Part shown: piece after piece, positions 1 through 4,347 of the stretch
How the letters are laid out: every line of letters starts with the position of its first letter
Position numbering within the stretch: position 1 is the stretch's first letter
Virus record (IMG/VR): IMGVR_UViG_3300042868_005645
Span: 1 to 55,223 of that record
Direction: 5' to 3' (one strand)
DNA from: a virus
DNA length: 55,223 bases
The notes under the pieces: generated by a model
The model's database searches: none
The model's input: only the letters and a program-made list of their open reading frames with translations
What the model was told of the DNA's origin: nothing
Made by a program: the position numbers and the translations under genes

Positions 1-67
1 ACGTGGGTTCGAACAGACATGCTGGGGGTGGACGTGGAGAGTGCCTGTCATTTCTAGAACCTGAAAA

Positions 68-134
68 ACCTGGTTGACAAAGTGGTTGTAGACGAAAAAC
101 AACACGAATCAAAGACCTGGTTGACAAAGTGGTT
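68..134. repeat. 20-bp direct repeat left of the DnaA-box cluster
   Basis: The sequence acctggttgacaaagtggtt occurs at 68-87 and again, identically, at 115-134, a 47-bp period. Each copy contains TTGACA, but no convincing -10 element follows at 16-18 bp, so I do not call them promoters. Their position directly before the DnaA boxes suggests they belong to the same origin-like region. Positions 1-67 hold nothing I recognise. Confidence 0.75.
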
Positions 135-143
135 ATTGCAGAG

Positions 144-195
144 TTATCCACAGGTTATCCACAGCCAAGAAAAAGTTATCCACAGGATATCCACA
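144..195 (+). other. Cluster of four DnaA boxes (origin-like)
   Basis: TTATCCACA, the strongest E. coli-type DnaA box, occurs exactly at 144-152, 155-163 and 176-184, and a one-mismatch copy (ATATCCACA) lies at 187-195. All four point the same way. Their starts are 11, 21 and 11 bp apart, that is one, two and one helical turns, so DnaA would bind one face of the DNA. T4-like phages do not normally rely on host DnaA, so this is unusual in this context. It could instead be a titration site for host DnaA. Confidence 0.8.
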
Positions 196-202
196 ATGGA
201 AA

Positions 203-504
203 ACCGGTAGAGACCGCTTTGACTTTAGGGTCTTTGAATTTTCAGACACTGTGGCTCTATTACAACAGCGTAATAGGTCTAGGTTGACAGGGTCAGAGGG
301 CCCGCACCGGTAGCGACCGGTCAGCATGTAGACACATTACCGGTCGGCACCGGTTACAGTTTAACTAGAATACCGGTAACTACCGGTTATTTTAGACACG
401 ATTTCCCACTATACCGGTCGGTACCGAACCACTCGTTACCGGTTATATGTGGCATTTTCACTACGATTTTATATGGTTTTGAAACGATACCGGTTGACAC
501 CGAT
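203..504. repeat. Iteron-like array of ACCGGT-N4-ACCGGT
   Basis: Seven ACCGGT hexamers start pairs at 203, 306, 339, 372, 413, 438 and 489. In six of them a second ACCGGT or a one/two-mismatch copy follows exactly 10 bp later, for example 306/316, 339/349 and 372/382. The pairs at 306, 339 and 372 are exactly 33 bp apart. ACCGGT is itself a palindrome, so each pair looks like a site for a cooperatively bound dimer on one face of the helix. With the neighbouring DnaA boxes this resembles the iteron part of a plasmid-type origin. No gene is supported in 1-540. Confidence 0.75.
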
Positions 505-540
505 GAGAGGCATAGTTCAAATACTCGCCCCTACTCTCTG

Positions 541-750
541 CTATTCGCCCCGTCTACGACTCTCACGCTTGATGGCCTCTACTTCTTGTCGCACACTCAT
601 GTCCATTCTGCTCCAACGTATGATCATTGATGCCAACTTGCCTGCTACCCATACCCAACGACCCTTTTCAGTGGTGTATCTACCAGGCGCTAGACGTAGC
701 AGTGCTGACACCAATTCAATGCTTGCACGACGATGTTCTTCTTGACTCAT
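541..750 (-). CDS. Small basic hypothetical protein, 69 aa
   Basis: This open frame encodes a 69-residue soluble protein rich in Arg and Glu, with a tryptophan-rich middle (RWVWVAGK) and a charged C-terminal helix. I do not recognise a family. It ends at the edge of the ACCGGT repeat array, so it could encode a protein acting there, but that is only inference from position. No strong ribosome binding site is visible upstream of the ATG at 750. Confidence 0.45.
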   Translation of the reverse strand: MSQEEHRRASIELVSALLRLAPGRYTTEKGRWVWVAGKLASMIIRWSRMDMSVRQEVEAIKRESRRRGE

Positions 751-780
751 GCACGTATTTACAGGAAATCTAGGCTTTCG

Positions 781-1154
781 CGCAGCGGGGCCTAACCATG
801 TATGAAGGTCTGTGACCGTAAGCCAGTGTTCTATGTGTAAAACCCCAGGACCGCACAGCGGGGCCTAATGCTCTTATATGTGTCTGAGAGGATCTCTGCT
901 GTGCAGGAGACTCCTTATGCGTATATGCTTACGCAATGAGTCCGGTCACTAGGTCGGCGTTGGGATCTACAGCATCACAGCAGTCACCATAGCGTAACAT
1001 GAACTCAGTGTGCAGTTTATTGTTGATATCCAATGTGAATCTAGTACGGTTCAAGTGTACACTGTAAGCGATATTGTGCATGCCTAGCCATGAAAGTACC
1101 TGTGTAAACTTAGAATTTTCTGTTAAAATGTAATACTGCACAGCGGGGCCTTGA
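781..1154. repeat. Three copies of a GC-rich 13-mer (AGCGGGGCCTWA)
   Basis: CAGCGGGGCCT with flanking similarity occurs near 783-795, 855-867 and 1140-1153. The second and third copies also share the preceding GCA. In minus orientation the copies at 1140 and 855 read AGGCCCCGCTGTG, placing an AGG-type Shine-Dalgarno just before a GTG. A fourth copy of the core (cagcggggcctaa) lies inside the Sm-like gene near 39210. In a moderately AT-rich genome this is more than expected by chance. 751-928 otherwise holds nothing convincing. Confidence 0.5.
929..1141 (-). CDS. Small hypothetical protein, 70 aa
   Basis: The frame reads as a coherent small protein (SKFTQVLSWLGMHNIAYS, then RTRFTLDINNKL). I chose the GTG at 1141 as start because an AGG lies just upstream and it begins after the stop of the membrane protein gene at 1162; an ATG at 1216 would overlap that gene. 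Function is unknown. It is probably cotranscribed with the membrane protein. Confidence 0.45.
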   Translation of the reverse strand: MQYYILTENSKFTQVLSWLGMHNIAYSVHLNRTRFTLDINNKLHTEFMLRYGDCCDAVDPNADLVTGLIA

Positions 1155-1161
1155 GTGCAGA

Positions 1162-1329
1162 TCACTTGTCCATGAACACAAACATAGTGACTACGCAAAA
1201 CACCACCACAAACCACAGTGCATATTCAGCCCATGCCTGTTGTTCCTCTTCAGTGGGCTCATGTTCATCACAGACTTTCTTCCAACCAAATTCTTCACTG
1301 CGATCCTGTTCCTCATTGTATTTTACCAT
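1162..1329 (-). CDS. Small single-pass membrane protein, 55 aa
   Basis: An acidic N-terminal half (about residues 1-33) is followed by one strong hydrophobic segment (ALWFVVVFCVVTMFVF) and a short basic end, typical of small phage membrane proteins. The ATG at 1329 is preferred over one seven codons upstream because AAAGGAG sits at good spacing before it. The function is not recognisable. Confidence 0.6.
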   Translation of the reverse strand: MVKYNEEQDRSEEFGWKKVCDEHEPTEEEQQAWAEYALWFVVVFCVVTMFVFMDK

Positions 1330-1460
1330 TGTGTGTTCTCCTTTATACACAGTGTACTTAGTGCAGTTTCAGTGTGGGAGGCCAAAAAAAACCGCGGCGC
1401 TGCCGCTCTGCGGCTATCAGGACTCTTGGCTCCGGACCAAAATGTCGGATAACTACACAT

Positions 1461-2114
1461 ATGATACAACTGTTACCTGCCACTAATACTGTTAGCACTG
1501 AATATCGATTAAACTCGTTGGGATATAGATGCTGTGAGTTCACTAGAGAGTCATTTGATAGCACATGGCTGTTTGGCTGTAGTTATGCCTTTGGTTGGGC
1601 TGTTGCGGAGGAACATACTGTTGGCTATCAGTTGAGCGAGTTATTAGGGGAACCAGTGCTGAATCTAGGGCAAGGTGGCACCAGTATACGCTATCAGGTG
1701 GATCAGTTTGCGTTGTTATTATCACAGGGTTTGCGTCCTCGTCGTGTTGCTGTGATATGGCCCGATCCCAGTCGTTGCACATGGATAGGATCGCAGGGCA
1801 GGCTTCAGCCTAGACTCAGTCAACAACTGCGCTTGGCACATGCAGAGGATGAAGTATATGTTAATACCAGGGCACACTTGGATATACAACAGTTTAGACT
1901 ATTATGTCAGTTCGTGGGTGTTGCCAGTGCAGAACTAACTTGGAGTACGCATACACAGGCTGTGACGTCGGGACCTAAGGGTTTTGAAGATCCTGTATCG
2001 TGGAGTTATCCTGAACTGGATCTGGGTTGGGATCAACAACATCCTGGGCATTTGAGTCATAGGGTGGCCGCCGAAGAGATTGTCCTACAGTTTCAGGGTG
2101 TCAATGTGCCATGA
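1461..2114 (+). CDS. SGNH/GDSL hydrolase-like protein
   Basis: This 217-residue protein has the layout of the SGNH hydrolase-like proteins seen in phages and surface polysaccharide loci: NSLGYR at about 18-23, a block I nucleophile region GCS at 39-41, LNLGQGG at 67-73 (the Gly block), and a GHLSH motif near 199-203 where the family has its catalytic His. The expected enzyme removes or transfers acyl groups on glycans. The open frame extends upstream through 1374, but the ATG at 1461 gives the sensible N-terminus. A paralogue with the same signatures lies at 43510-44211. Its stop overlaps the next ATG (ATGA), so it heads a short operon. Confidence 0.65.
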   Translation: MIQLLPATNTVSTEYRLNSLGYRCCEFTRESFDSTWLFGCSYAFGWAVAEEHTVGYQLSELLGEPVLNLGQGGTSIRYQVDQFALLLSQGLRPRRVAVIWPDPSRCTWIGSQGRLQPRLSQQLRLAHAEDEVYVNTRAHLDIQQFRLLCQFVGVASAELTWSTHTQAVTSGPKGFEDPVSWSYPELDLGWDQQHPGHLSHRVAAEEIVLQFQGVNVP

Positions 2115-2308
2115 AAGCCTTGTGTTATCGTGCAAGACTGCACACACCCTGGGACGACCACTGCTACAATCTCATGATTAAATTGGGAGGGTGGAGCACC
2201 ATAGGCATCATCACCATAGACTACTATGTGCCTGAAGATCGCAGTTTTTTGTTGGTGTTGAGTCATCCTGAGTTAGAACGGCGTGAGAGTCAAGACTATA
2301 TTATTTGA
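2111..2308 (+). CDS. Small hypothetical protein, 65 aa
   Basis: The ATG overlaps the stop of the SGNH-like gene in the ATGA form used throughout this genome, which supports translation. The protein is compact and aromatic, with a central hydrophobic stretch (STIGIITIDYYV). I do not recognise it. It may be a small partner of the SGNH-like protein. Confidence 0.55.
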   Translation: MKALCYRARLHTPWDDHCYNLMIKLGGWSTIGIITIDYYVPEDRSFLLVLSHPELERRESQDYII

Positions 2309-2319
2309 CGAGGTCACAG

Positions 2320-2327
2320 TGTAAATA
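2320..2327 (+). promoter_or_regulatory. T4-late-type promoter, near-leaderless
   Basis: TGTAAATA lies 5 bp before the ATG at 2333. This is the spacing seen at several other late-type elements here and would put the transcript start at or next to the start codon. No Shine-Dalgarno is visible for the gene. Confidence 0.45.
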
Positions 2328-2332
2328 CCTGC

Positions 2333-3370
2333 ATGAATGAATTCTTTAGACCTACATATAATGAAGCCCAGGGACCACAGCGTATTGCCAGCCAAACAAG
2401 ACCCTGGCACTTGCCGGAACTCACAGTCTACATCACAGATAGTTGTAGCCTGAGTTGCCAAGGTTGCATTACCTATAACAACTATGCCCTGGGTGGGCAC
2501 CTTGAGTTAACAGAGCAAGTTCGAAGTCGCATGTCTGCATGGGCACAGACTGTAAGTGCAGACAGACTCTACATCATAGGCGGAGAACCTTTGAGCCATC
2601 CTGATTTGGCTCTGTGGATGAACTTCGTCGCTGAACTATGGCCCAAGAGTCGTTGGACCGTGGTCACCAATGGGCGAGGCCTAGAACAGCGTAGTCAAGA
2701 AGTGGCTGGTTGGTTAGAACAGGGTTGGGATTTAGAAATATCCAGCCATAGTGAGGCGGATTACACCACAGCACGAGCCTGGTGGTCAAGCATGGTGACA
2801 GAGTTAGCAGACAGGGTCAAACATGGTCAAGAACGTGACCGTCATGGAGTCACAGAGTATTGGTTAGACAGTGAGGGTAGGCCCATGATGCAGATTGGCC
2901 TAAGGGATCACTTCTATGCGCCCACGCACACAGTAACAGATCGGGGCACACTGGCATGGAATCCATTAACATCACCCAAGTCTACCCACAGAAATTGTGA
3001 CGCCAAAGCGTGTACACATTTGGTCAACGGTGTTATGTATCGCTGTCCTGTGCAGGCTACCTTGCCCAGACTCAGTGAGCGTTACACTATAGAAGGTGTT
3101 GCTGGTGAGATAGCCAGCAAGGATTTGGGCTACGATCCACTCAAGCCCAGGATGTCTTTGAGCACATGGATGTCAATGTTAACCTCCAGCACTGAGCAGT
3201 GCAGACTCTGCGAGTGGCCCAGGGCAATGACAGCCCTAGGCGACCCAACAGCAAAGAAAATTAAGTTAATTCGAAGAGTTAACCCAGATAGTCCAACCAC
3301 TGCTCTGGAACACCCTGCCAACCTTGACGGCGACGAGCACTGGCCAGAGCCCAGTAATCAGGCTTCGTAG
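2333..3370 (+). CDS. Radical SAM protein with SPASM-like C-terminus
   Basis: At 345 aa this has the radical SAM signature Cx3Cx2C (C38, C42, C45 in CSLSCQGC), which binds the 4Fe-4S cluster that cleaves S-adenosylmethionine, and the GGEP motif at 83-86. Further cysteines at 222, 227, 238, 290 and 293 suggest an auxiliary SPASM/twitch-type cluster. Substrate is unknown. Its neighbours (SGNH-like, epimerase) suggest modification of a surface glycan or a small peptide, by inference only. Its last 92 bp overlap convergently with the HNH gene. Confidence 0.8.
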   Translation: MNEFFRPTYNEAQGPQRIASQTRPWHLPELTVYITDSCSLSCQGCITYNNYALGGHLELTEQVRSRMSAWAQTVSADRLYIIGGEPLSHPDLALWMNFVAELWPKSRWTVVTNGRGLEQRSQEVAGWLEQGWDLEISSHSEADYTTARAWWSSMVTELADRVKHGQERDRHGVTEYWLDSEGRPMMQIGLRDHFYAPTHTVTDRGTLAWNPLTSPKSTHRNCDAKACTHLVNGVMYRCPVQATLPRLSERYTIEGVAGEIASKDLGYDPLKPRMSLSTWMSMLTSSTEQCRLCEWPRAMTALGDPTAKKIKLIRRVNPDSPTTALEHPANLDGDEHWPEPSNQAS

Positions 3371-3791
3371 GCTTGGTACGGGGCACAATCTTTTTGTTGT
3401 TGCCCTTGCTGGCATTACATGGACCACAGGCAGTGACACAGTTGGTAAACGTAGTCTTACCGCCGTGACTTACTGGTAGTACGTGGTCCACAGTGGCATT
3501 ACGTCGATCCACTGCACAGCCACAGTATTGGCAACTCCAGTTATCGCGCAGGAACAAATTGCCCTTAGAGAAACGCACAGTGCTCTTGGGTTTTTGGCGA
3601 TCATGCAACATCATCACAGCAGGCACAGCAGTTTCCCAACGTGCTGAACGTACGATCCAAGAGTCGTAGTAACTCAATACATAGGCCTTGTCCAAGACCA
3701 TGTATTTGATTGCATCTTCCCAACTTAGTGTGCTCAAAGGCAAGTAACTAACTGGTTGTGCGTCTGTATTGAGTAATAGTGTAGTGCTCAT
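3279..3791 (-). CDS. HNH endonuclease
   Basis: A 170-residue HNH nuclease. The C-terminal half shows the zinc-ribbon HNH fold: CQYC (87-90), VDHVLPVSHGG with the catalytic His at 103, N117, and a second zinc pair C122/C125 in CGPCN. HNH enzymes cut DNA using a single metal ion; in phages they act as homing, packaging-linked or defence-related nucleases. I placed the start at 3791 because upstream sequence of the open frame reads as antisense of YqgE and because a sigma70 promoter ends at 3802. The N-terminal domain (1-75) resembles that of stand-alone phage and bacterial HNH proteins. Confidence 0.85.
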   Translation of the reverse strand: MSTTLLLNTDAQPVSYLPLSTLSWEDAIKYMVLDKAYVLSYYDSWIVRSARWETAVPAVMMLHDRQKPKSTVRFSKGNLFLRDNWSCQYCGCAVDRRNATVDHVLPVSHGGKTTFTNCVTACGPCNASKGNNKKIVPRTKPTKPDYWALASARRRQGWQGVPEQWLDYLG

Positions 3792-3801
3792 AATGTTGTC
3801 A

Positions 3802-3830
3802 ATTATACTAGATTTCGAAGAGTTTGTCAA
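3802..3830 (-). promoter_or_regulatory. Sigma70 promoter for the HNH gene
   Basis: On the minus strand TTGACA (3825-3830), a 17-bp spacer and TATAAT (3802-3807) are all exact consensus. It lies inside the end of the YqgE gene and fires into the HNH gene, with the expected transcript start only a few bases before the ATG at 3791. Confidence 0.8.
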
Positions 3831-4347
3831 CTGCTTGTTGTGTGGCTGAATCCAAGGCTTGATGCCAAACCACTTCAGGTCTACGACGATCCCAAAGTAA
3901 TTCTTCTTGAAAATCGGTGACCATCCAACCTGCACTGTCTTTGAGTTCGCGATCCAATTGTCCCGGAGCCCATCCTGAATAGCCCAACATCAAACGCCAA
4001 TTTTCAGGTTCGTCACCTCTGCTCAGTCTGGTCAACATGCTGACATGACTGCTCAAAGATATATTACTGTGCGTGACTAACTGTGTATTGGCTGTACGCC
4101 ATTCCGTAGTGTGTGCTAGTATTAGCGCACTGGGATTTACAGGTCCGCCTACAAATAAAGGCACATTGGTTCGCCAAGCAATATTGTGATGTTCAGCCAG
4201 GTCGCCGCAGTTCTTGGCACTGGGTTTGTTGATGATTAAGCCAGCATAATTATCTTGGTTACATTCGTATAACCAAATAACTGTCTTACTCCAGAAAGGA
4301 TCTTTCTGGTTGGGGGTTGCAACCAGAAGTTTGCCCAAGTACTGCAT
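3808..4347 (-). CDS. yqgE: YqgE/AlgH family protein (DUF179)
   Basis: A full-length (179 aa) member of the YqgE/AlgH family. Visible family marks are the N-terminal GKLLVATPNQKDPFW, the GGP motif at 67-69 and the diagnostic LGYSGWAPGQLDREL at 121-135. The bacterial family has no settled biochemical function; it has been linked to transcriptional control in Pseudomonas. In a phage this looks like a captured host regulator. It follows the basic 78-residue gene by 2 bp and ends inside the promoter of the HNH gene. Confidence 0.9.
   Translation of the reverse strand: MQYLGKLLVATPNQKDPFWSKTVIWLYECNQDNYAGLIINKPSAKNCGDLAEHHNIAWRTNVPLFVGGPVNPSALILAHTTEWRTANTQLVTHSNISLSSHVSMLTRLSRGDEPENWRLMLGYSGWAPGQLDRELKDSAGWMVTDFQEELLWDRRRPEVVWHQALDSATQQAVDKLFEI

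Follow-up and report, generated by a model that had tools for sequence, protein, structure and literature searches.

Parts of the locus

By the window we mean the whole stretch of DNA that was analysed, a record of 55,223 bases. Near its first base, which is a contig end, the window carries a conserved leader, a direct repeat, a cluster of DnaA boxes and an array of ACCGGT dyads that ends at a nearly invariant 22-mer (Table 1). Among its products are T4-type proteins, namely RIIA, RIIB, the ribonucleotide reductase large subunit and a structural protein whose nearest counterparts are found in cyanophages.

Table 1. Coordinates of the features at the start of the window
Feature	Position	Strand	Remark
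Conserved leader (GTGGGTTCGAACAGACATGCTGGGGRTGGACGTGGAGRGTGCC)	1..52	+	alignments of 7-8 records
Direct repeat copy 1, 24 bp	64..87	+	one copy at most in relatives
Direct repeat copy 2, 24 bp, 96% identical	111..134	+	47 bp from copy 1
DnaA box TTATCCACA	144..152	+	exact
DnaA box TTATCCACA	155..163	+	exact
DnaA box TTATCCACA	176..184	+	exact
DnaA box ATATCCACA	187..195	+	near-exact
Dyad 1, one half degenerate (ACCGGTAGAGACCGCT)	203..218	
Conserved block CCGCTTTGACTTTAGGGTCTTTGAATTTT	214..242	+	common to G001, nearly to G003
Dyad 2, perfect ACCGGT-N4-ACCGGT	306..321	
Dyad 3, perfect	339..354		33 bp past dyad 2
Dyad 4, perfect	372..387		33 bp past dyad 3
Dyad 5, one half degenerate (ACCGGTCGGTACCGAA)	413..428	
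Lone ACCGGT half-site	438..443	
Dyad 6, one half degenerate (ACCGGTTGACACCGAT)	489..504	
Nearly invariant 22-mer GAGAGGCATAGTTCAAATACTC	505..526	+	ends array in G000, G001, G005-G008
Small ORF, 69 aa	541..750	-	also in G001; oriented toward array

Four DnaA boxes lie within 52 bp (144-195) at steps of 11, 21 and 11 bp, which confirms an earlier note on this DNA that had described three exact boxes and one near-exact box with this phasing (at 144, 155, 176 and 187). The cluster exceeds chance: for the whole window we would expect ~0.5 exact boxes and ~4e-8 triple clusters within 41 bp. DnaA clusters are not rare in viral contigs, and a scan returned at least 120 stretches with two tandem boxes; at least 63 of those listed had, within 100 bp, three or more boxes by a loose definition, all in one orientation. 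By themselves the boxes would be ordinary, and the unusual part is their link to the operator regulon described below. In a comparison with known phages, the DnaA boxes were the sole part of the window's first 6 kb to find a match, in Vibrio phages BD1 and BD5. In BD1 (L002 2380-2560), DnaA boxes and variants are clustered near the end of an unrelated 47-kb genome. Two jumbo phages with a related GP88 protein, XacN1 and RAS14, had no tandem DnaA boxes, and ACCGGT pairs were absent from the stretches of these two phages that we examined. A literature search turned up one report on a lytic phage in which DnaA boxes are named, as part of an Ori-Finder prediction (PMC11512268).

The seven ACCGGT units counted previously proved to be an undercount, as ten are present in 203-494 (at 203, 306, 316, 339, 349, 372, 382, 413, 438 and 489). 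The window holds 16 in total, compared with 5.8 ± 2.3 in shuffled sequences. The array units build six 16-bp dyads, full or partial, of the form ACCGGT-N4-ACCGGT. Three perfect pairs (306/316, 339/349 and 372/382) do lie exactly 33 bp apart, as had been claimed, and these are the perfect pairs of the window, where ~0.001 would be expected. Beyond what had been described, the pairs extend as partial dyads at 203, 413 and 489. The word "iterons" was misleading, since the ACCGGT pair appears in relatives as a palindromic operator on phage early promoters; the array units are palindromic dyads with ACCGGT in both halves, not directly repeated asymmetric iterons. For the direct repeat, the 47-bp spacing held and the reported length of 20 bp did not: the repeat measures 24 bp at 96% identity. 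Because relatives hold at most one copy, we regard it as a local duplication.

The leader includes a nearly invariant GGGRTGGACGTGGAGRGTGCC, found in the same place in six relatives. In relatives, the leader lies shortly 3′ of a rightward TTGACA-N17-TATAMT promoter (e.g., L173 14913-14941); the contig end removed the window's own copy of this promoter. None of the relatives scanned had an Rfam match for the leader, which folded no better than shuffled sequences in five of six cases. It may contain a very short reading frame (MDVEGA-like). To the right of the array, a short repeat, CAGCGGGGCC(T), occurs at window positions 779-795, 852-868 and 1137-1153, and copies are also scattered on this side of the array in relatives (L176, L180 and L181).

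Related records and the variable module

A neighbouring gene led to the relative IMGVR_UViG_3300032326_000129 (L124; whole record L173, here G001), and pattern scans added G002, G003, G005, G006 (278 kb), G007, G008 and L206. The array comparison covered eight IMG/VR records, namely the window (G000), G001-G003 and G005-G008; G004 is unrelated. The relatives have many small early or flanking genes in common. The region in L174 gave no matches to known phages. A further contig, L125, was found by a 17-mer of the region and was rejected as a chance match, and L053 and L208, which carry ACCGGT repeats of other designs, look unrelated. GC content is ~46-49% in the array and early gene region (window 1-4000; G006 100001-120000, L189) and ~35-43% across most of what remains of these genomes.

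Aligned in the window's orientation, these records follow a common order: a rightward consensus promoter, the leader, a variable module, an array of about five to six dyads and GAGAGGCATAGTTCAAATACTC. The rightward promoter was found in six relatives, and leftward early promoters adjoin. Contig ends cut the layout in four cases, with the window and G008 starting inside it and G002 and G003 ending inside it. The earlier note had pointed to related phages as the place to look for the same array. The dyad array is indeed kept in seven of seven relatives, but the DnaA cluster is missing from its place beside the array in three of them (G005, G006 and G007).

The DnaA cluster is thus the variable module in five of the eight records (G000, G001, G002, G003 and G008). 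It ranges from three to ten boxes when near-exact variants are included, the ten being in G002, and it is cut by the contig end in G008. All 27 boxes in the five records have the same orientation, and they are in 11-bp phase (R 0.93). Two tandem DnaA boxes are found in G005 ~1 kb away. At about the position of the module, G005 and G006 each have one TGCGAATNATTCTTA-like palindrome and G007 has four; by eye, these palindromes resemble Fur boxes and may be of that kind. Sites of this type occur at L180 11626-11765 (four in ~120 bp), L176 9895-9915 and L178 5100-5120.

In G002 and G008, the lowest stability in the record is found directly 3′ of the boxes (99.8-100th percentile), where the AT content is 84-86% over 50 bp. 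This segment contains repeated AWAGTAAATTTT units; G002 has a repeated AACAWAGTAAATTTT unit, of which G008 has a near copy. The opening region of E. coli oriC is likewise located 3′ of box R1.

The dyad on early promoters

Outside the array, the early gene regions of seven relatives contain 51 dyads, of which 49 fall on consensus sigma-70 early promoters. Measured from the first base of the -35 hexamer, the centre of these dyads is at -7, +3, +13 or +14. The four offsets are about one helical turn apart, and a typical early promoter reads TTGACA-ACCGGTNNNNACCGGT-NN-TATAAT. By the same promoter criterion, 8.5% of random positions would qualify, as does just one of 29 array dyads. In a scan of bacterial genome contigs, the operator-promoter pattern was absent. 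Because nearly all dyads outside the array sit at fixed offsets on early promoters, the reading of the dyad as the operator of a phage early regulon is well supported, and a dyad placed between the -35 and -10 elements of a strong promoter would most simply mean repression. On the best-supported reading of its sequence, the array gathers the early operators of the phage itself into a cluster free of promoters, placed beside host DnaA sites and heading the early genes.

Two apparently unrelated viral contigs carry similar elements. In L053 (6105-6350), GTAAACCGGT repeats adjoin three DnaA boxes, an independent case of such pairing, and in L208 (5631-5670), ACCGGTTGACAACCGGTTTTAACCGGTGATATACT is a promoter whose spacer contains the same dyad.

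A winged-helix HTH_39 protein is encoded in G001, G002, G005, G006, G007 and L206, with 74-87% identity, and was found in every record in which enough of the early region is covered. A small HTH_23-like protein has the same distribution and lower identity. Either protein could be the dyad binder; for HTH_39, co-occurrence makes it our guess at a candidate. The scan of early-region proteins also matched a DnaB-type helicase gene, and the 278-kb G006 encodes a B-family DNA polymerase. We found no recognisable DnaA or Rep_3 protein in any record; Rep_3 (PF01051) was absent from all eight, most of which are fragments, and this weakens the absence there. A scan of 50 early- and flanking-region proteins returned ten Pfam families, with no Rep or partition family.

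Replication, early transcription and the competing readings

Our best reading of the locus is a conserved control region in an uncultured group of large T4-type phages. Judged from its sequence elements, this control region is most likely a host-DnaA-assisted replication origin that one phage protein couples to early-gene repression, a proposal whose chances we put at about even. Arguing for an origin are the DnaA cluster, with its single orientation and helical phase across five of eight records, the AT-rich, least stable DNA that adjoins the boxes in two members, the conserved order of the parts, and the parallel with T4 oriE (PMC3016281). The conservation of HTH_39 and the match to a DnaB-type helicase gene also speak for this best reading. 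The earlier suggestion of an origin-like region able to recruit host DnaA is a fair one: the cluster recurs in four relatives without change of orientation or phasing, and an AT-rich segment is added in two of these. Several observations weigh against an origin. The window has no AT outlier, its weakest 100 bp being at the 69th percentile; three array-bearing members lack the DnaA cluster there; no phage-encoded initiator was recognised in any record; and the array dyads across relatives are only weakly in helical phase (R 0.41, p ~0.03). A change of skew at the site, which had been put forward as a check, was not found: the gene-direction-corrected skew has no switch at the array of G006, a record that itself has no boxes there. 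In the window, the record starts at the site, and skew can be read on one side of it.

A purely transcriptional role for the locus is possible, although we do not favour it. The array would then be an operator stock for the early regulon, serving as a repressor sink or looping site, and the part of DnaA would be confined to the nearby early promoter, where it would serve as a host transcription factor or as a sensor of growth state. On early promoters the dyads clearly resemble operators, and the lack of a skew signal fits such a role. So do the three relatives that keep the array without DnaA boxes and have TGCGAATNATTCTTA-like palindromes in about the same place, as would be expected of exchangeable host regulator sites. 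However, a strongly AT-rich segment adjoins the boxes in two relatives, on the side expected of an origin, and a consensus promoter is present at just one of the 29 array dyads.

It is unlikely that the boxes are a DnaA titration site, which would draw DnaA off the host origin and help stop host replication. Boxes of exact consensus, numbering ten in G002 with variants included, would serve this purpose, and their copy number would climb as the phage genome multiplies. Nevertheless, the four boxes in the window would make titration weak until the genome had already multiplied, and titration requires neither fixed orientation, phasing nor linkage to an operator array. The earlier note had also raised a plasmid-like maintenance element, but it is highly improbable that the phage carries such an element or a plasmid-type replicon: DnaA boxes next to repeats do resemble the RK2 or P1 origins (PMC4980987), but the repeats are palindromic operators, no Rep_3 gene was found in the related records, most of them fragments, none of the ten Pfam families among the 50 proteins scanned is a Rep or partition family, and a comparison with PLSDB gave no plasmid match.

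A close known parallel to the proposed origin is T4 oriE, where repeats resembling iterons occur together with an early promoter, close to a switch of transcription direction; the role of its repeats is still undefined, and they are kept in related phages (PMC3016281). The statement that this combination is not typical of a T4-type phage was thus only partly right (PMC3016281). Both loci belong to T4-type phages and have regularly spaced repeats that are kept in relatives, together with an early-mode promoter near a switch of transcription direction (PMC3016281). They differ in that the oriE iterons are 12-nt direct repeats, with no DnaA boxes named there by the review (PMC3016281), whereas the repeats at this locus are palindromic operators common to early promoters. 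Iteron plasmid origins (RK2 oriV, P1 oriR and F) share with the locus DnaA boxes adjoining repeated protein sites and, with its best examples, an AT-rich region for opening (PMC4980987). In contrast to these plasmids, the locus has no Rep_3 initiator and has dyads in place of direct iterons, the same site is used on many early promoters, and the 278-kb relative has its own B-family polymerase. Phased consensus DnaA boxes, with an AT-rich repeat segment 3′ of the boxes in G002 and G008, recall bacterial oriC, but no dnaA gene was recognised, skew did not switch in the relative tested, and the window has no AT outlier. The stoperators of mycobacteriophage L5 are dispersed repressor sites, in which one short site is present at many genome positions and is tied to repression. 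The sites described here differ from stoperators in their placement: they occupy fixed offsets on early promoters and also form an array next to DnaA boxes.

If the locus is a DnaA-assisted origin under phage control, host DnaA would assemble on the boxes and aid opening of the adjacent DNA. The early promoter beyond the boxes would send a transcript toward them, which may aid opening or help to prime synthesis, as happens in T4. A phage protein that binds the dyad, for which HTH_39 is the candidate, would repress the early promoters and fill the array, and through occupancy of the array replication there could be started, or restrained, as early transcription ends. More tentatively, we speculate that one phage protein reads the 16-bp dyad both on ~6-8 early promoters and in the origin array, which would make early shutoff and initiation a single switch, and that the module next to the array, which takes a host factor, can be swapped, with DnaA boxes in some members and TGCGAATNATTCTTA palindromes, similar to Fur boxes, in others.

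Outside T4, little is known in T4-type phages about where replication first starts and how its timing relates to early transcription. The repeats described here have a readable second use, as putative operators of early promoters, beside sites for the host initiator, and this makes a coupled switch directly testable. It is probably at this locus that the virus couples the onset of its DNA replication to early-gene control.
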